A DNA stretch of 39,023 bases from an uncultured Desulfocapsa sp. (GTDB lineage Bacteria; Desulfobacterota; Desulfobulbia; Desulfobulbales; Desulfocapsaceae). The stretch spans positions 1 to 39,023 of the forward strand of contig CAMZKT010000077.1 of the NCBI GenBank assembly GCA_947311435.1, written 5' to 3'. Numbering within the stretch: position 1 is the stretch's first letter; every line of letters starts with the position of its first letter. Both the position numbers and the translations under genes were made by a program. Shown here in pieces: positions 16,174 to 28,560 of this stretch. The notes beneath the pieces were generated by a model that made no database searches, was not told the DNA's origin, and saw nothing but the letters and a program-made list of their open reading frames with translations.

Positions 16174-17799
16174 ATGGAAAAACAAGAGACATTCATCCAT
16201 GACATTTGGATGCTTAGCCGTGAATACGGAAATCTGGCCGGGGCTGGTGGCGTAAAAGATGTGGTTGCCCAGCTCTCAGTAACCCTGGCTCGCCAGTCAA
16301 AACGAACTGTACATGTTGTGCTGCCCTGTTATGGGTTTATGGATCCGGAACAGTTGGGATTCTCGTATATGGCCGATCCACTGTGGACAGACAAAATACT
16401 TCAGTTCGAGGTTGACCTGGATTACCCTGAAGAGAGACGGCTGGAAGCAGTCACAGTCTGGGTGAAAAAGCAGGGAGGTGTCACTCTGTACCTTATCGAC
16501 TCTTCCCGTTTTCGCGAGAAATTAAACGTATACACATATACCGCAGCGGAGGAGGGTGATGCCATCTGGAAGAAAGCTGGGGAAGGGCATGTCGATTTCT
16601 TTGCCATGAACATTCTCCTGCAAAAGGCTGCCATTGCTTTGATGATACTTCTTAAAGCGCAACCTGATGTCATTCATTGCCACGATGGGCATACTGCTGT
16701 GCTTCCTGCAATGATTGCTGAACAACCCGGATTGCGTCATTATTTCCGTAATACTGGATGTGTCATTACAGTCCATAACGCAGGGCTGGGCTATCATCAG
16801 GAAATCGTTGATTTGACCTTTGCTCAGGCAATTACCGGCCTGTCTCTATCGCTGGTTTACCAGGCACTCTTGGATGGAAAATTTGATCCATTTCTAGCTG
16901 GCGCCAACTATGCTGTGATGAATACGGTGAGCGAAAATTATGCGAGGGAGTTGCGAGAAACTGTTGATGACCATCTCACTGGTTGGCTTGGCCATGAATT
17001 GTTAAATAGACACATAGTGCTTGAGGGGATAACGAACGGTATTGATCCCGAAGCTTTTTCAGCAAAAGATCCTGAAAGAGTACACATCGCGGCAGGTTTT
17101 GACCCAATGGGTGACGAAGCACTCACCGGAAAACAACAGTGTAAAAAAGAGTTACTGGAACGATTGGTGCGAGAAGAACCATTGCCCGGGGTGCTTCAGT
17201 CGGGAGTTTTGGATCCTGACCCTTCCGCACCCCTTGTTACCTTTATCGGACGACTCAGCACTCAAAAAGGGGTCTCTGTTTTGATCTCTGCGTTAAGGAA
17301 ACTCCTGGTCGAACGAACCGATTTTCGTTTTTTGTTGTTGGGAACCGGTGATAAATATGACGAAGAGGCTTTGGTGCAACTGGCAGAACATCCTGTCAAC
17401 AGGGGACGCATCTGTGTCCTTCGCGGGTTTGACACAATCCTTGCGAATAAAGTATATGCAGCAGGTGATTTTTTTGTGATTCCTTCCCAATATGAGCCTT
17501 GTGGTCTGACTGATTTTATGGCACAGCTTTTTGGAAATTTACCCATTGTTCATGCTGTCGGTGGGCTGGTCAAGGTGGTGGATGGCCGAACGGGATTCTC
17601 TTATGAAAGACAGAGTTCTGCGGCTTTATCGGAAACAATTGAACGTGCCCTGCACTTGTATGCTACAAATCCGGAAGCGATACGGGTAATGCAGCGTCAG
17701 GCTGTGGAGATGATCCACGAACATTACACGTGGGACACGGTAAGTAAGGAATATTTAAAGTTATATACACAGGCAAAACAGGAGAAAATTGCAAGATAA
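16174..17799 (+). CDS. glgA: Glycogen/starch synthase family glycosyltransferase (GT5), divergent
   Basis: 541-aa two-Rossmann-domain glucosyltransferase that extends alpha-1,4-glucans from a nucleotide-glucose. The N-terminal GT5 domain contains HCHDGHTAVLPAMI near residues 169-182 and ITVHNAGLGYH near 197. The GT1-like C-terminal domain has FIGRLSTQKGVSVLISAL near 356, and the nucleotide-sugar EPCGLTDFMAQLFGNLPIV near 438 followed by GGLVKVV. The usual N-terminal KxGGLxDVV loop reads GAGGVKDVV, so the Lys that contacts the donor in E. coli GlgA is not present. This appears in a divergent subfamily, and donor preference (ADP- versus UDP-glucose) is open. ATGGAGTG upstream serves as ribosome-binding site. 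Three bases separate it from aroC. Confidence 0.85.
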   Translation: MEKQETFIHDIWMLSREYGNLAGAGGVKDVVAQLSVTLARQSKRTVHVVLPCYGFMDPEQLGFSYMADPLWTDKILQFEVDLDYPEERRLEAVTVWVKKQGGVTLYLIDSSRFREKLNVYTYTAAEEGDAIWKKAGEGHVDFFAMNILLQKAAIALMILLKAQPDVIHCHDGHTAVLPAMIAEQPGLRHYFRNTGCVITVHNAGLGYHQEIVDLTFAQAITGLSLSLVYQALLDGKFDPFLAGANYAVMNTVSENYARELRETVDDHLTGWLGHELLNRHIVLEGITNGIDPEAFSAKDPERVHIAAGFDPMGDEALTGKQQCKKELLERLVREEPLPGVLQSGVLDPDPSAPLVTFIGRLSTQKGVSVLISALRKLLVERTDFRFLLLGTGDKYDEEALVQLAEHPVNRGRICVLRGFDTILANKVYAAGDFFVIPSQYEPCGLTDFMAQLFGNLPIVHAVGGLVKVVDGRTGFSYERQSSAALSETIERALHLYATNPEAIRVMQRQAVEMIHEHYTWDTVSKEYLKLYTQAKQEKIAR

Positions 17800-17843: not shown

Positions 17844-17894
17844 GAATACTGACATGAAGTAAAGAAGTTTAAATTGTTCACATGGAGACAGGGA

Positions 17895-18899
17895 ATGACA
17901 ATTAAAGTAGGAATCAATGGTTTTGGTCGTATCGGCAGAAGTATTTTTAGGGCTTTAATAAAAGATCCCGCGTTTACAGAAGTTGAAATTGCGGCGATCA
18001 ATGATCTGACTGAAAATGCAACCCTTGCCCACCTTTTAAAGTATGACTCTGTAATGGGTATCTATGATCTTGATGTGGAAAGTGATGAACATGGGATTAC
18101 AGTAAATGGAAAGCATATCCCGGTAAGTAGCCATAGAAATCCTGCTGATATCCCGTGGGGTGAACTTGGTGTGGAATATGTTGCAGAATGTACAGGTATC
18201 TTTAGAGATAGAGACGCTGCACAGAAACATATCAGCGCAGGAGCCAGCAAGGTAGTGATTTCTGCTCCGGCCAAAGGAGATATTAAAACGTTTGTGATGG
18301 GGGTAAACGAAGATGAATATGATCCCACGATACATCATATTGTTTCCAACGCTTCCTGTACCACGAATTGCCTGGCTCCATTTGCTAAAGTCATTTTGGA
18401 TAATTTTGGAATTAAACATGGGTTGATGACCACCGTTCATGCTTACACCGGCGATCAGCGATTGCTTGATTTTCCGCATTCTGATCTGCGCAGAGCACGA
18501 GCTGCAGCAATGTCCATGATTCCTACCAGCACTGGCGCTGCAGCCGCTGTTGCACTTGTTATCCCAGGGTTGAAAGGAAAATTCGACGGCCTTGCAGTGC
18601 GGGTACCTACCCCGAATGTCTCACTTGTGGATGCTGTGATGGAAGTTGAACAGGCGACATCTGTTCCTGAGGTGAACGAGGCTCTGAAAGATGCCAGTAA
18701 TCGTTATCTAGGCTATACTGACCTGCCATTGGTATCCGTGGATTTTCAGGGAAACTCACATTCCTCAATTATCGATGGACAATCAACCAAGGTAATCGGA
18801 ACCACAGTAAAAGTGATGAGTTGGTATGATAATGAATGGGGGTATTCAAACCGAATGGTTGATTTGATCCTTCATATGGAGGCGAATAAGAGCTTGTAA
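17895..18899 (+). CDS. gapA: Glyceraldehyde-3-phosphate dehydrogenase, type I
   Basis: 334-aa glycolytic/gluconeogenic dehydrogenase. The NAD-binding start KVGINGFGRIGRSIFRAL and Asp in AINDLT (position expected for NAD+ preference) are clear. The catalytic Cys is C155 in SNASCTTNC, the partner His is in TTVHAYTGDQ, and WYDNEWGYSNRMVDL marks the C-terminus. The frame is open to 17874, but ATG 17895 is chosen because the enzyme begins there and GGAGACAGGGA precedes it. It stands 95 bases after glgA and is followed by a 10-bp stem hairpin, then the dikinase-like gene, suggesting a carbon-storage/glycolysis neighbourhood. Confidence 0.96.
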   Translation: MTIKVGINGFGRIGRSIFRALIKDPAFTEVEIAAINDLTENATLAHLLKYDSVMGIYDLDVESDEHGITVNGKHIPVSSHRNPADIPWGELGVEYVAECTGIFRDRDAAQKHISAGASKVVISAPAKGDIKTFVMGVNEDEYDPTIHHIVSNASCTTNCLAPFAKVILDNFGIKHGLMTTVHAYTGDQRLLDFPHSDLRRARAAAMSMIPTSTGAAAAVALVIPGLKGKFDGLAVRVPTPNVSLVDAVMEVEQATSVPEVNEALKDASNRYLGYTDLPLVSVDFQGNSHSSIIDGQSTKVIGTTVKVMSWYDNEWGYSNRMVDLILHMEANKSL

Positions 18900-18915: not shown

Positions 18916-18948
18916 AACAGCCAGCGAATCTTCAGGTTGCTGGCTGTT
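18916..18948 (+). terminator. Hairpin after gapA (weak or attenuating terminator)
   Basis: AACAGCCAGC (18916-18925) pairs perfectly with GCTGGCTGTT (18939-18948) across a 13-base loop. The sequence after it (GTGCATTATA) lacks a U-run, so complete intrinsic termination is doubtful; partial read-through into the dikinase-like gene or an mRNA-stabilising role is possible. Confidence 0.5.
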
Positions 18949-19020: not shown

Positions 19021-22000
19021 ATGATGACAAAAAAAACATTACCTCTTGAGTCTGATGCATTAGCGGCCAATCTTCTGGAAACAGCAGAAGAAGTAATTAT
19101 TGAAAAGAAGCTTCTTCTCTTGCTCGATGTTGTTATTCGGTATAAAGGCTTGCACAATACCCTTGAGGATCTCCTTTATGAGATTTGTCATCCCTATAGG
19201 AACTGGAGCATTCTGATTCCTCAGCTTCGCAGTTTCGTTTTAAAAAACAGTAGCTACTATAAGCGGCACGAAAAGGGGCCAGAGGCATTTACCCTTTTTG
19301 CAGAGCTTTTCATCGATGCTATGAAAGACTGTGAAAAAAACAGCAAGCTACTTTCCCAAATCATTGAGTCCCAGGTCGCTTGGGTCGCAAAAATGGTCGA
19401 TCTCTTTTCTGTTGAAGACCTTTATCGCTACCAATCGGCACTGAATAATTATTTTGAAAGACTCCTTGAGCTTGATGATGGAGAGAGTCCCATCATGCTG
19501 CGTATTGTCCAGGGACAGCATCCGATGAAGAAGTTGGCCGCTTCTCTGCTTGCTTTTGTGGATAAGGGTGCTACTGCGTTTGAGTATGGCCCGATGGTAA
19601 AACTCATGCAAGCGATCCTTAAGAAAAATTATAGTTATTGGCTGAATGAAGAAGACCCTCTTCTCTGGTTTATCGATCATTGTGGAGTGTTGTGCGAAGG
19701 TTTCCATTCCGGGAAGTTATTCGCGTCGATCTCTCACGAGTCCATGAAAAAGCATGATATTGCAGTAAAATCTATTGATATAGGGAAAGATCCTGTAGCA
19801 GCTTTGCGCGATATTTTGGTTTTGCCGGCCCATGTTGATATTGTTCGGTTCTATAAAGAGATTCCTGCAAGATTAGCTGATGCGGACGGGAATAAACTTG
19901 GAGCATCCAGTGAACAGGGCCTGCCCTTAAATCGATTTGCTGAGAATCAAAAGCTGCTGTTTCTTTTTCGGATCATGGACACCAAGGGTTTATATTTGAT
20001 TCATGAAGAGACTCTGCGTGAAATTAACCGATCTCTGGTTCAGTTGATTCGTCTCCAGAAATTTGAAGAAATTGAGGAGTTTCTTCTTACGGCATTTCAG
20101 TTGCTTCGGGCGAATGTACGAAGGTATCCTCATACGTCGTTACAGTGTATTCAAGTACTTGGAGGGGAAGTTTTTAAGCGTAAGAATGCCAGAATGGTGG
20201 AGACTTTTCTCTGGCAGGCAGTTCGGTTTGGCTTTCAGTATGCTAATGTGATGGGTGTTGATGAAGACTGGCAACCTCTTACCAATCCTGCCCATCTGGC
20301 CAATATCCGGGTTTGGCTCAATCTTATAATGCAGGAACCTAAATGGTGTGGCACTCTTTTTTCTGCACTCATTATTAATATTAAACTCTCTGGTACCTGT
20401 GTTAAGGACACGGATCTTTTTCAGCGGGACATTACCAATCTGCTCAACCATCCTATTGAACCCATATATAACCTGGCAAAACAGTTTACCAAACTCATGC
20501 CTGTTTTTTTTAACGAGATTGGGGCAGAGGGGGACTTGAGGGAAGTCTCAACAGAACTTGATGAAATTCATAAACGGCATGACCTGCTGATTCATTTTCT
20601 TCGTAAACAGAGTCATGTGGAGAGCTCCAACCTGATTGTCGGGTTCATTAAAGCCATTTTTGTCTTCTGGCTGACTAAAAAGAAGGAAGGTCTCCGGTCT
20701 TTTCTCCCTGATGAAGTGTATTCCGAAGTTGAAGCAAAAGGTATTTTTATTGATGATCAGAATATACTGCTAAATCGTATTTACGAACAATTAGAATTTT
20801 CCAGTCCAGACGATCTTTTATCCTGGAGTCGTGACGAACGACGGGAGTATCTCTCTCTTCAATCCGATCTTCCCCCGTCGGAATTGCGACGCTTTGATCT
20901 GTTGGTGCATATGTTCCAATTATTGAACCAGAAATACAACCTGGGGTTCCAGGAACTACGAACAGAACTTGAACAGGCCGCTCAAGAGGGTTTTCCTGAA
21001 ATGGAAGACCTTCTTCAAACTTTAGAGCAATGTGATACAATCGAGTGTATTGAAGCACTGCTTCACGCCTTGGAAGGGTTGAAGGAGACGATCCTTTCCC
21101 CTGAAAAATTTGAAGCGAGGGAGGATATATATTACAAACGTCATATCGCCGTCGATATCCCCTCGGTATACGGAAAATACAGGGAAAAGAAATTTGACAG
21201 TCTTTCTTTGAGTTTTCGTCTGGAAAACCTGACCAATATCTTTCTGGAAAAACTTCCGGAAACAATAAGTTTATCTTTTATCACCCAGGCTACATTCTAT
21301 AGTATCGTCAAGTGTTTGAAGTTGTATTTACGTGCTCTTCAGGTGGATGGTATTACATCCAGACGGCTTGAAACATATATCTCTCTGCTTACAAGTTCCC
21401 TTGATATCAGGAGATTTTCTTATACCCAGTATCTTGATATTTTTCGTGGGCTGTCAGAGGGAGTTAAAGATGTCATTTATTCCTATTACACCAATATTCA
21501 TCAGAATAATCTTAGTATTATCATTCCTCAGATAGGTGCCAGTAATCTCCTTACAAATTATAGATCTCTTTGGAGGGATGAGGACACAACCAACTCCATC
21601 CATAGTCTTTCCGAGGCTTTTTTAAGAGATTTGATTGCCAGCACTTTTGGTTTACAGCATCTTGATAACTTTATCACAAGGATCATAGGTACCCTTGAAA
21701 GCCAAAAGGACATTCTTGAAGAGAAGCGCCTAGATTTACTCATGACTTATAATCCTGAACGTGCCATTTCTTTACTCCACAAGAGCAACCCTTATACCCA
21801 TGATTTGATTCATCTTGGGAACAAAGGCTATAACCTTGTGACACTCTGTGATGACAAGAAAGCAATACCACCTGCATTTATTATCACCACGGAAGTCTTT
21901 CGCTGCCGTGAAGTCGTGTATGGCTTTGACAAGGCGCGTGAAGAGTTTATGCATCGTGTTCGGAAGTCTTTAACCGAGCTTGAGGAGCTTACAGGAAGAA

Positions 22001-23295
22001 ACTTTGCCGATACCAAAGATCCTCTATTGCTTTCTGTCCGAAGTGGTGCCGCAGTTTCCATGCCTGGAATGATGGCTACGATGCATAACGTTGGTACAAA
22101 TGAGGAGTTAATTGAGGAGGCAGCACGAATATATGGTGACTCCTATCTGGCCTGGGATAACTATCGGCGTTTTCTGCAATCGTGGGGCATGACTTCAGGT
22201 GTGACAAGAGATGAGTTTCAGGACCTTATGAATAATGCGAAAGAACGGCACAATGTCAGGTTGAAAGGACAGTTCTCTCCTGAGCAAATGAAGGAACTGG
22301 CACTTGATTACCAGAAGTTAACTCGGAATAAGGGGCTTGGTATTCCTGACGACCCCTGGCTGCAGCTGGTGACGGCGATTGAAATGGTGTTTGATTCCTG
22401 GGAAACGGATAAGGCTTCGGATTACAGGAAAATTATGGATGTGTCAGACTCATGGGGAACGGCGGTAATTGTTCAGGCCATGGTATATGGAAATAAAAGC
22501 CAGTCATCCGGATCTGGCGTACTTTTTACTGCACACCCCTATAGAAAGGTGCAGCGTGTTGCTCTTTGGGGGGATTATGCCTATGGCGATCAGGGAGAAG
22601 ATATAGTATCTGGCTTGGTTACCAGTTATCCGATTTCTGTGGAACAGGCTGAACTTGATGGTCGGGCAGTGGATAGATCCCTTGAAGTGAGGTATCCTGA
22701 TATTTACCAGGAGTTGCTTAGTATTTCAAGGGAACTCGTTTACGAAAAACGTTGGAATCCACAGGAGATTGAGTTTACCTTTGAAGGGCCTGATGCCAGT
22801 CATTTGTATCTGTTGCAAACCCGCGATATGATCACCATTAAACAGCAGGAACGATTTCAAGTTTTCACAGATGCCGAAGCTTTGGCAACAGCATGTCTTG
22901 GTAAGGGAATTGGTGTCTCAGGCTCAGCCCTTTCCGGTCGTGCGGTCTTTACTGAAGAAAATATTCGGGAGTTGAGACGCACTGACCGTGATACTCCATT
23001 GATTCTTATCCGCTCGGACACCGTTCCTGAAGACATCAAAGTGATAGATATGGCCGAGGGCCTGCTTACTTCTAGGGGGGGGCAGACCTCCCATGCCTCT
23101 GTTGTGGCGGTGCGGCTCGACAAAACCTGTATCGTGGGTTGCAAACATTTGAAAGTCTATGAAAACCGTCAGTATTGTGAACTTGGTGCAGCTGTTATCA
23201 AGTTCGGTGATTTTATTTCTGTGGATGGACGTAGTGGACAGGTGCTGAGTGGTATTCATGTAACTCATGAAGAAATACACATATTGCCGATCTAA
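19021..23295 (+). CDS. Dikinase-like protein: long helical N-terminus plus PPDK ATP-grasp and phosphohistidine domains
   Basis: 1,424 aa. The first ~900 residues are unrecognised, largely helical and charged, with no membrane segment. Residues about 925-1265 form a pyruvate,phosphate-dikinase-type nucleotide-binding domain: GNKGYNLVTL, then GAAVSMPGMMATMHNVG near 1010, SGSGVLFTAHP near 1166 and LYLLQTRDM near 1263. Residues about 1290-1380 are the swivelling phosphohistidine domain, with the catalytic His in GGQTSHASVVAVRLDKTCIVG. The protein ends about 45 residues later, so the TIM-barrel PEP/pyruvate domain of PPDK and PpsA is missing. It should autophosphorylate on His from ATP, but the acceptor is unknown. 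The frame opens at TTG 18937 inside the gapA hairpin; ATG 19021 or 19024 is preferred. Neighbours are gapA and glgA. Confidence 0.82.
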   Translation: MMTKKTLPLESDALAANLLETAEEVIIEKKLLLLLDVVIRYKGLHNTLEDLLYEICHPYRNWSILIPQLRSFVLKNSSYYKRHEKGPEAFTLFAELFIDAMKDCEKNSKLLSQIIESQVAWVAKMVDLFSVEDLYRYQSALNNYFERLLELDDGESPIMLRIVQGQHPMKKLAASLLAFVDKGATAFEYGPMVKLMQAILKKNYSYWLNEEDPLLWFIDHCGVLCEGFHSGKLFASISHESMKKHDIAVKSIDIGKDPVAALRDILVLPAHVDIVRFYKEIPARLADADGNKLGASSEQGLPLNRFAENQKLLFLFRIMDTKGLYLIHEETLREINRSLVQLIRLQKFEEIEEFLLTAFQLLRANVRRYPHTSLQCIQVLGGEVFKRKNARMVETFLWQAVRFGFQYANVMGVDEDWQPLTNPAHLANIRVWLNLIMQEPKWCGTLFSALIINIKLSGTCVKDTDLFQRDITNLLNHPIEPIYNLAKQFTKLMPVFFNEIGAEGDLREVSTELDEIHKRHDLLIHFLRKQSHVESSNLIVGFIKAIFVFWLTKKKEGLRSFLPDEVYSEVEAKGIFIDDQNILLNRIYEQLEFSSPDDLLSWSRDERREYLSLQSDLPPSELRRFDLLVHMFQLLNQKYNLGFQELRTELEQAAQEGFPEMEDLLQTLEQCDTIECIEALLHALEGLKETILSPEKFEAREDIYYKRHIAVDIPSVYGKYREKKFDSLSLSFRLENLTNIFLEKLPETISLSFITQATFYSIVKCLKLYLRALQVDGITSRRLETYISLLTSSLDIRRFSYTQYLDIFRGLSEGVKDVIYSYYTNIHQNNLSIIIPQIGASNLLTNYRSLWRDEDTTNSIHSLSEAFLRDLIASTFGLQHLDNFITRIIGTLESQKDILEEKRLDLLMTYNPERAISLLHKSNPYTHDLIHLGNKGYNLVTLCDDKKAIPPAFIITTEVFRCREVVYGFDKAREEFMHRVRKSLTELEELTGRNFADTKDPLLLSVRSGAAVSMPGMMATMHNVGTNEELIEEAARIYGDSYLAWDNYRRFLQSWGMTSGVTRDEFQDLMNNAKERHNVRLKGQFSPEQMKELALDYQKLTRNKGLGIPDDPWLQLVTAIEMVFDSWETDKASDYRKIMDVSDSWGTAVIVQAMVYGNKSQSSGSGVLFTAHPYRKVQRVALWGDYAYGDQGEDIVSGLVTSYPISVEQAELDGRAVDRSLEVRYPDIYQELLSISRELVYEKRWNPQEIEFTFEGPDASHLYLLQTRDMITIKQQERFQVFTDAEALATACLGKGIGVSGSALSGRAVFTEENIRELRRTDRDTPLILIRSDTVPEDIKVIDMAEGLLTSRGGQTSHASVVAVRLDKTCIVGCKHLKVYENRQYCELGAAVIKFGDFISVDGRSGQVLSGIHVTHEEIHILPI

Positions 23296-26568: not shown

Positions 26569-28560
26569 ATGAGTTCTAGTGATGACAAAATCATAAGCTT
26601 GTTAGGAGAAGCCAGAGTTTTCGACCCACCAGTCGATGGACGGGAGAGAGCCGCCATCGGAAGTTTTGAGGAATACAAATCGATTTATAAGCGATCCATG
26701 GAAGATCCTGAGGGATATTGGGCGGAACGTGCCGAGGAACTCGTGAGTTGGGACAGGAAATGGGATAGCGTCCTGGAAGCTGATTTTGATACACCTGAGT
26801 TTAGTTGGTTTAAGGGTGGAAAATTAAACGTGTCCTACAATTGTCTGGATCGGCACCTTGAAAACGGTCGTAGAAATAAGGCCGCTATTATCTGGCAGGG
26901 TGAACCTGAGGAAGATGTAAGGGTATATACGTATCAGATGCTCTATACGGAGGTCTGTCGATTTGCCAATGTCTTGAAGAAAAAAGGTGTTAAAAAGGGG
27001 GATCGTGTTTCCATCTATCTCCCCATGATTCCAGAGTTAGCCATTGTTCTTCTTGCCTGTGCTCGTATTGGTGCCATGCATTCTGTGGTTTTTGCCGGGT
27101 TTTCTTCAGTGGCATTACAAAGTCGCATTCAAGATTGCGAAGCCAGGGTTCTTGTAACGGCGGATGCAGTTCTACGGGCGGGGAAAACAATCCCTCTAAA
27201 ACAGAATGCCGATGAAGCTTTGACCGAATGCGATACGATAGAAAACTGTATTGTTGTGAAGCGTGGTGGAAACGATATCTCAATGACCGAAGGACGTGAT
27301 ACCTGGTGGCACGATGAGGTGACGGCGAAAGGTATTGCTTCAACCTGTGAACCTGAGTCCATGGATGCCGAGGATATTCTTTTTATTTTATATACTTCTG
27401 GATCAACAGGTAAGCCATAGGGTGTTGTTCATACCACAGGTGGGTACCTCACCTATGCCATGCATACCTGCCAATATGTTTTTGATCTGAAAGATGATGA
27501 TGTGTACTGGTGTACTGCTGACATAGGTTGGGTTACCGGTCATTCTTACATTCTTTATGGCCCTCTGGGACTTGGTGCAACTTCTATTATGTTTGAAGGC
27601 GTACCAACCTATCCTGGTCCCGATCGTTTCTGGAAAATAGTGGAAAAATTCCAGGTGAATATTTTTTATACCGCTCCCACTGCTATTCGGGCTCTTATGC
27701 GTGATGGAGATGGCCCTACCAGACGTTATGATCTTTCAAGTCTTCGTATCCTTGGATCGGTTGGAGAACCAATTAATCCAGAGGCCTGGATGTGGTATCA
27801 TGTGAACATTGGCAAAGAGAAGCTCCCCATAGTTGATACCTGGTGGCAGACTGAGACAGGAGGGTTGATGATTTCCCCACTTCCTTATGCCACCCCAACC
27901 AAACCGGGTTCTGCGAGTTTCCCCCTTCCTGGAATTGATGCTGCTATTTACAACGAAGAGGGAGAAGAAGCTGGAGTTAATGAGGGTGGACACCTTGTTA
28001 TCCGTAGACCATGGCCCGGTATGTTAAGAGGTGTCTTTGGTGATTCTGCCCGATACAAAAGTGCCTATTTCAATCGCTACGAAAATACATATGACCCTGA
28101 AGACAGTGCAAGAAAAGACGAAGACGGTTACTTCTGGATCATGGGACGTCTTGACGATGTTGTGAATGTTTCCGGGCATCGCCTGGGGACAGCTGAGATC
28201 GAGTCTGCCCTTGTAACTCATCCACAGATTGCAGAAGCTGCTGTTGTAGGTATACCGCACGCGATTAAAGGACAGGCCGTTTATGCCTTTGTTACACCAA
28301 ATACCGGTGTTGAACAAACTGACGAATTGTTGGTAGAGCTGAGAATACATGTGCGTAAAGAGATTGGGCCGATAGCGACCCCGGATGCAATACAATATGC
28401 GCCGGGCCTTCCCAAGACCAGAAGTGGCAAGATCATGCGCCGGGTGCTTCGTAAAATTGCCTCCAATGATTTTGATAACTTTGGAGATACGTCCACCCTT
28501 GCAGATCCTTCAGTTGTTGATGATTTGATCGAGGGTAAAAAAGAATTGGACAACAGCTAA
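26569..28560 (+). CDS. acs: AMP-forming acetyl-CoA synthetase with an in-frame UAG at the conserved P-loop lysine
   Basis: 663 sense-or-recoded codons, the normal Acs length. Converts acetate, ATP and CoA to acetyl-CoA. Both sides of the stop are well conserved: [71 protein letters not shown] and the acetylation-site region [11 protein letters not shown]. Codon 284 (27418-27420) is TAG, placed as [19 protein letters not shown], where homologues have Lys (AAG/AAA; one base from TAG). There is no frameshift and no ribosome-binding site or start directly after it; the next ATG is 13 codons on and would lack the loop. Readings are pyrrolysine recoding, suppression, base-call error or fresh pseudogene. 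Ends TAA. Neighbours form an acetate module. Confidence 0.85.

Follow-up and report, generated by a model that had tools for sequence, protein, structure and literature searches.

A predicted barrel-less PPDK-type phosphotransferase is co-inherited with a divergent glyceraldehyde-3-phosphate dehydrogenase in Desulfobacterota

The window analysed here, a stretch of 39,023 nucleotides from an uncultured Desulfocapsa sp. (contig CAMZKT010000077.1 of assembly GCA_947311435.1, forward strand), encodes a 1424-aa protein at positions 19021-23295 (+ strand) that we refer to as X. X carries the ATP-grasp and phosphohistidine domains of pyruvate, phosphate dikinase (PPDK), lacks the phosphoenolpyruvate (PEP)/pyruvate barrel of that enzyme and begins with a long region of its own. 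New here is the co-inheritance of X with a second, long, divergent glyceraldehyde-3-phosphate dehydrogenase (GAPDH) of ~420 aa, which we denote GapL (scored at E below 1e-80). The sequence supports the assignment of X as a PPDK-type phosphotransferase that has no barrel and carries an unrecognised N-terminal module (N-module). Many members of this sulphur-cycle phylum have such a 1400-residue enzyme in a core glycolytic/gluconeogenic gene cluster and keep it together with a second GAPDH. As a tentative preference, we propose that X is an ATP-driven His phosphotransferase that works with GapL at the triose-phosphate/1,3-bisphosphoglycerate node, a metabolite bound at the N-module being the favoured acceptor. 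No description of X was found in the literature searched.

The open reading frame (ORF) of X is intact from the ATG at 19021 to the stop at 23295. An alternative start is possible at TTG 18937, and the orthologs mostly start near residues 1-11 of the ATG form. The ORF is not a chance one, since X is ~60% or more identical over its full length within the window's order and full-length orthologs are present in 84 of 297 Desulfobacterota genomes, a sample spread over the phylum from which all distribution counts given here are taken; the other genomes match in the PPDK part alone. The window's own genome is available as a draft of 2.45 Mb with 89% completeness. Among the best 80 matches listed in a scan of genome contigs, the nearest named relatives are in Desulfocapsa metagenome-assembled genomes (MAGs; ~78-88% identity), and the titles point to Desulfobulbales-type or broader deltaproteobacterial sources. 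In a plasmid search, none of 108 records matched more than 80% of the query, and the matches listed align only from about residue 890 onward. We also noted that X is represented in one genome (G065, L158:7933-12100) by two overlapping ORFs with a frameshift-like break near codon 606, for which a sequencing error and a real split are both possible.

The catalytic half of X comprises a PPDK_N-type ATP-grasp domain (residues 932-1269, 21814-22827, + strand) and a phosphohistidine domain of the PEP-utilizers mobile type (residues 1285-1411, 22873-23253, + strand), which Pfam matched at 974-1216 (E 3e-28) and 1327-1406 (E 3e-17), respectively. The best match in the PDB was PPDK, aligned over residues 932-1416 with an E of 7e-79. 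A predicted model of residues 561-1424 (pLDDT 87.7, pTM 0.80) superposed on residues 2-521 of PPDK (Clostridium symbiosum, 1kbl) with a Z of 42.6, a root-mean-square deviation (rmsd) of 2.4 A and 36% identity over 485 aligned residues, and the swivel domain matched 2fm4 with a Z of 15.9. From the PDB alignment and what we take to be the catalytic positions of PPDK, we paired PPDK K22, R92, E323, Q335, R337, T453, S454 and H455 with K935, R1007, E1251, Q1266, R1268, T1356, S1357 and H1358 of X. All eight are kept in 68/68 orthologs, among them the catalytic histidine H1358 (codon 23092-23094, + strand) in the motif RGGQTSHAS. An earlier note, made from the window's sequence alone, had described both PPDK domains as intact and the protein as ending right after the His domain, and both descriptions held. 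The C-terminus, residue 1424, lies just past the His domain, where the PPDK barrel would start, and Pfam found no match to the PF02896 barrel anywhere in the protein. Scores against curated families were far from their cut-offs: 367 of 843 bits for PPDK (TIGR01828), 82 of 598 and 69 of 740 bits for the PEP synthase families, whose barrel X also lacks, 33 of 999 bits for rifampin phosphotransferase, X having its His domain directly after the ATP-grasp domain, and 14.7 of 342 bits for Enzyme I of the phosphotransferase system (PTS; TIGR01417), again with PF02896 missing from X. Because the barrel is absent and the family scores fall so far below cut-off, we ruled out X as a PPDK or a PEP synthase.

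The N-module accounts for the ~930 residues that X has in excess of PPDK and is present in all full-length orthologs. Pfam gave no convincing match and no carbohydrate-binding domain within residues 1-930, and a profile search of the PDB with the N-module found no convincing relative, in agreement with the ~900 unrecognised N-terminal residues reported before. A profile of the N-module retrieved exactly the 84 genomes with X among the 297 scanned; no stand-alone copy without the dikinase part was found in these genomes or in viral contigs. An AlphaFold2 model of residues 1-935, built on a 65-sequence alignment, was nearly all-helical (pLDDT 86, pTM 0.77; model m1be84124ac5a). The earlier note had held that a known N-terminal fold with an established function would speak against a new role; Foldseek and VIA-align returned only weak, generic helical-repeat matches of the HEAT/karyopherin type with low TM-scores, and those listed mostly cover residues 35-501, with 502-930 hardly represented. 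Residues 1-400 (19021-20220, + strand) are predicted to be alpha-solenoid-like (best Foldseek E 5e-4 with a TM-score of 0.10; VIA Z up to 11 with large rmsd) and are poorly conserved, with 1.8% near-invariant positions. Conservation is concentrated in two blocks, where near-invariant positions make up 23% and 43%, respectively, compared with 2-4% elsewhere in the N-module. The first block (residues 401-540, 20221-20640, + strand; 32/140 near-invariant) has 13 near-invariant charged or His residues (H425, D463, D465, E503, R507, D514, E515, R519, D521, R528, K529, H532 and E534). The second (residues 700-736, 21118-21228, + strand; 16/37 near-invariant) reads EDIYYKRH..IPS.YG.Y.E.KF and is predicted to form a beta-hairpin. 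Many of the invariant residues in both blocks are R, K, H, D or E, and the blocks are at least as invariant as the catalytic domains. From their sequences, the blocks look like a binding or catalytic site and are candidates for the place where an acceptor or partner docks.

The distribution of X follows that of GapL closely. GapL was detected in 85/297 genomes, giving 83 genomes with both proteins, one with X only, two with GapL only and 211 with neither (Fisher p 2e-70, a statistic that ignores phylogeny); the sole X-only genome is 76% complete. More telling than this p value is the agreement within families: f5, f13, f14, f36, f52 and f57 are mixed for X, and GapL tracks X in all of them, the incomplete genome G113 (76%) excepted. 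The two genes are also frequently neighbours. Among the neighbourhoods of 66 X orthologs, compared by mechanical neighbour calling, gapL adjoins X in 40, sharing its strand in 33 of them and facing the other way in 7, and is nearby in four more; this procedure overlooked a few neighbours, either where a contig ended or through the choice of ORFs (for example at L126 and L180; compare the coordinates in G208 and G129). Ordinary gapA is adjacent to or near X in 43/66 loci. The link between X and its neighbours had previously been called only positional. The adjacency to gapA was upheld, and the connection to GAPDH is more than positional because X and GapL co-occur almost perfectly.

GapL is probably a working GAPDH, since it is the only protein with a Gp_dh_C domain in three genomes of family f31 (G028, G065 and G227). 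Like type I GAPDH, it keeps the catalytic and main phosphate-binding residues, with C149, H176, R231, T179 and T208 present in 48/48 sequences. Unlike type I GAPDH, it carries insertions, scores below the cut-off of TIGR01534 (326.6 bits, cut-off 367.2) and forms one clade apart from ordinary GapA. Its other changes are N152 to T, D181 to S/T, R195 mostly to K and the cofactor motif INDL to GR(E/Q), and the altered cofactor site may indicate another cofactor preference.

In the scheme that we tentatively favour, X would descend from a PPDK that lost its C-terminal PEP/pyruvate barrel and acquired the N-terminal helical module. The ATP-grasp domain would bind Mg-ATP and phosphorylate H1358 in the swivel domain, with AMP and inorganic phosphate (Pi) or pyrophosphate (PPi) as the products set free. 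The swivel domain would then deliver this phosphate to an acceptor located at the two conserved blocks of the N-module, residues 401-540 and 700-736. This acceptor would most likely belong to the GAPDH/1,3-bisphosphoglycerate node because X appears to work with GapL, and we prefer a small metabolite docked at the N-module, since the blocks show the conservation expected of an active site. It is conceivable, though unlikely, that X is a phosphoglycerate dikinase, splitting ATP to AMP and Pi or PPi as it converts 3-phosphoglycerate to 1,3-bisphosphoglycerate (or catalysing the reverse reaction from AMP and PPi) and handing the product to GapL. X would then relate to phosphoglycerate kinase (PGK) as PEP synthase/PPDK relates to pyruvate kinase, and sulphur-cycle bacteria would have a second, energetically different route through a core step of gluconeogenesis/glycolysis. 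Replacement of PGK by X was ruled out, PGK being present in 70/70 good-quality genomes with X.

Several points weigh against the favoured scheme. Given the same PGK count, there is no missing step that would require a metabolic role of X. The first 400 residues, as modelled, resemble a protein-binding solenoid and would fit a protein target equally well. GapL occurs without X in the two GapL-only genomes, both of them incomplete MAGs. In addition, we infer from sequence the autophosphorylation, the swivel mechanism and the place and kind of the acceptor, and a common pocket of the two blocks facing H1358 would be a further assumption. By analogy with VadK (Rv1127c) of M. tuberculosis, X could instead be a regulatory kinase that autophosphorylates in response to ATP, binds or phosphorylates GapL (or GapA) by means of the solenoid and adjusts how fast or in which direction the GAPDH step runs, the acceptor being a protein. 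VadK is a PPDK-derived, barrel-less kinase that autophosphorylates on His422; its gene lies beside those of its target pathway, the methylcitrate cycle, and the protein interacts with the enzymes of that cycle and has been proposed to tune methylcitrate synthase (PMC13400623). X resembles it in its apparent derivation from PPDK, the loss of the barrel, the retention of the ATP-binding and His domains with an intact catalytic His and a location beside central-metabolism genes. VadK differs in its size (~50 kDa), in having no N-module, in its partner, the methylcitrate cycle and not GAPDH, and in its phylum. The adjacency of X to GAPDH genes in variable gene order and strand, the solenoid-like prediction for residues 1-400 and the nature of GapL as a divergent paralog with insertions are further points for a regulatory role, whereas a simple docking surface would not usually be invariant at or above the level of the catalytic domains, as the blocks are, and both the phosphosite and an X-GapL complex are hypothetical. 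We regard regulation of GapL as possible if somewhat doubtful, and nearly as likely as a metabolite acceptor. Either the GAPDH/PGK node would have a new phosphoryl-transfer reaction, or a PPDK would have become a GAPDH regulator independently of VadK; both would alter models of central metabolism in these organisms, and both are testable with two purified proteins.

The remaining explanations are far less probable. The PPDK-like ATP-grasp and swivel domains suggest that X could make PEP as a split PPDK or PEP synthase, with a separate barrel protein or with pyruvate bound at its own N-module. This is largely refuted, and we give it hardly any credence. The earlier note would have counted a universal barrel partner against a new function; three 99%-complete genomes (G014, G117 and G171) keep X without any PF02896 match, and because of this X is not half of a split PPDK and a barrel partner in trans was ruled out. 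These three genomes have a GTP-dependent PEP carboxykinase (GTP-PEPCK) for PEP supply, so X is not needed as their only PEP-forming enzyme, and a barrel-type PEP enzyme or PEPCK usually accompanies X in its genome. The sole PF02896 match in the window's genome (contig C1) is a complete 813-aa enzyme, and a barrel gene was never seen as a regular neighbour of X in the 66 neighbourhoods. Very improbable, too, is a role in PTS phosphotransfer, in which X would feed phosphate to EIIA-man or EIIA-Ntr. Genes for hpf, ptsN, rapZ and EIIA-man lie just upstream of gapA-X or X in up to 20/66 loci, but this cluster, which we take to be a widespread rpoN-linked operon, is found close to X neither in the window nor in most loci. 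Enzyme-I-sized PF02896 proteins (~600-aa frames) are present in most genomes with X, and therefore no PTS donor is missing there. Glucan, water dikinase is a non-pyruvate dikinase with the same two domain types as X, its His domain coming first and its ATP domain being C-terminal. That X acts in this way on glycogen is barely plausible: glgA does precede gapA-X in the window and elsewhere in its order, but other lineages lack it near X and often have gapL, pgk and tpiA there, no carbohydrate-binding domain was matched in X by Pfam, the domain order differs, and no glycogen-gene context is conserved beyond the window's order.

The earlier note compared X with glucan, water dikinase and rifampin phosphotransferase (RPH); PPDK itself and VadK proved to be the nearest known precedents. 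The loss of the PPDK barrel has a precedent in VadK. RPH uses an ATP-grasp and a swivel His domain on a non-pyruvate acceptor held by a separate domain (PMC4844700), as do the two-component HpeHI/PpsAB dikinases (PMC12167813). The structural match of X to RPH is weaker (Z 25 over 351 residues), with the NCBIfam score far under the cut-off, and the acceptor domain of RPH lies between the ATP-grasp and His domains, whereas the module of X is N-terminal. X joins VadK, RPH and HpeHI in a loose group of repurposed dikinases but has an N-module and a partner of its own.

Other proteins with such domains were noted along the way. The window's genome encodes a second barrel-less dikinase-like protein of 821 aa (G000:C75, L008:1126-3591; PPDK_N at 126-406, His domain at 450-518), a 996-aa protein with response-regulator and PPDK_N domains and no His domain match (G000:C48, L009:196-3186) and a pyruvate kinase that, like Bacillus-type enzymes, carries a PEP-utilizers His domain at its C-terminus (G000:C74, L004:1-1737). 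Another genome (G056, L159:7872-11873) has a complete 1333-aa PPDK with an unmatched N-terminal extension of ~440 residues.

In the window, X has the neighbours described before, aroK, aroC, glgA and gapA. The gapA gene (17892-18899, + strand), which encodes an ordinary 335-aa GAPDH, is directly upstream of X and is the conserved neighbour. Glycogen synthase (glgA, 16174-17799, + strand) is near X only in Desulfobulbales, the window's order, so the suggested glgA link was not sustained and the gene is probably not part of the system. Outside this order, X and gapL are adjacent as a rule, and many lineages there have gapA-X-gapL-pgk-tpiA-secG or X-gapL-gapA-pgk-tpiA-secG. In the window's genome, gapL is located away from X on contig C20, where a rimI-like gene and then pgk come after it. 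We considered the acetyltransferase encoded between gapL and pgk, and beside X elsewhere, as a third component and rejected it, as it is RimI-like and probably housekeeping. A related arrangement may exist in Thermosulfurimonas dismutans, for which pgk (TDIS_2021) and two GAPDHs (TDIS_2022 and TDIS_2024) were reported, the authors concluding that glycolysis probably operates as gluconeogenesis (PMC4911364); judging from the gene numbers, TDIS_2023, unmentioned in that paper, would lie where X is expected.

The 121 bases that separate gapA from X contain a strong hairpin at 18917-18947 (ACAGCCAGC ... GCTGGCTGT) that was not listed by the pattern scan of the window and could be a terminator or an attenuator. 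Downstream of X, the acetyl-CoA synthetase gene (26569-28560, + strand) is in two ORFs, with an in-frame TAG at 27418-27420 inside a conserved motif, reflecting either a pseudogene, an assembly error or unusual read-through.

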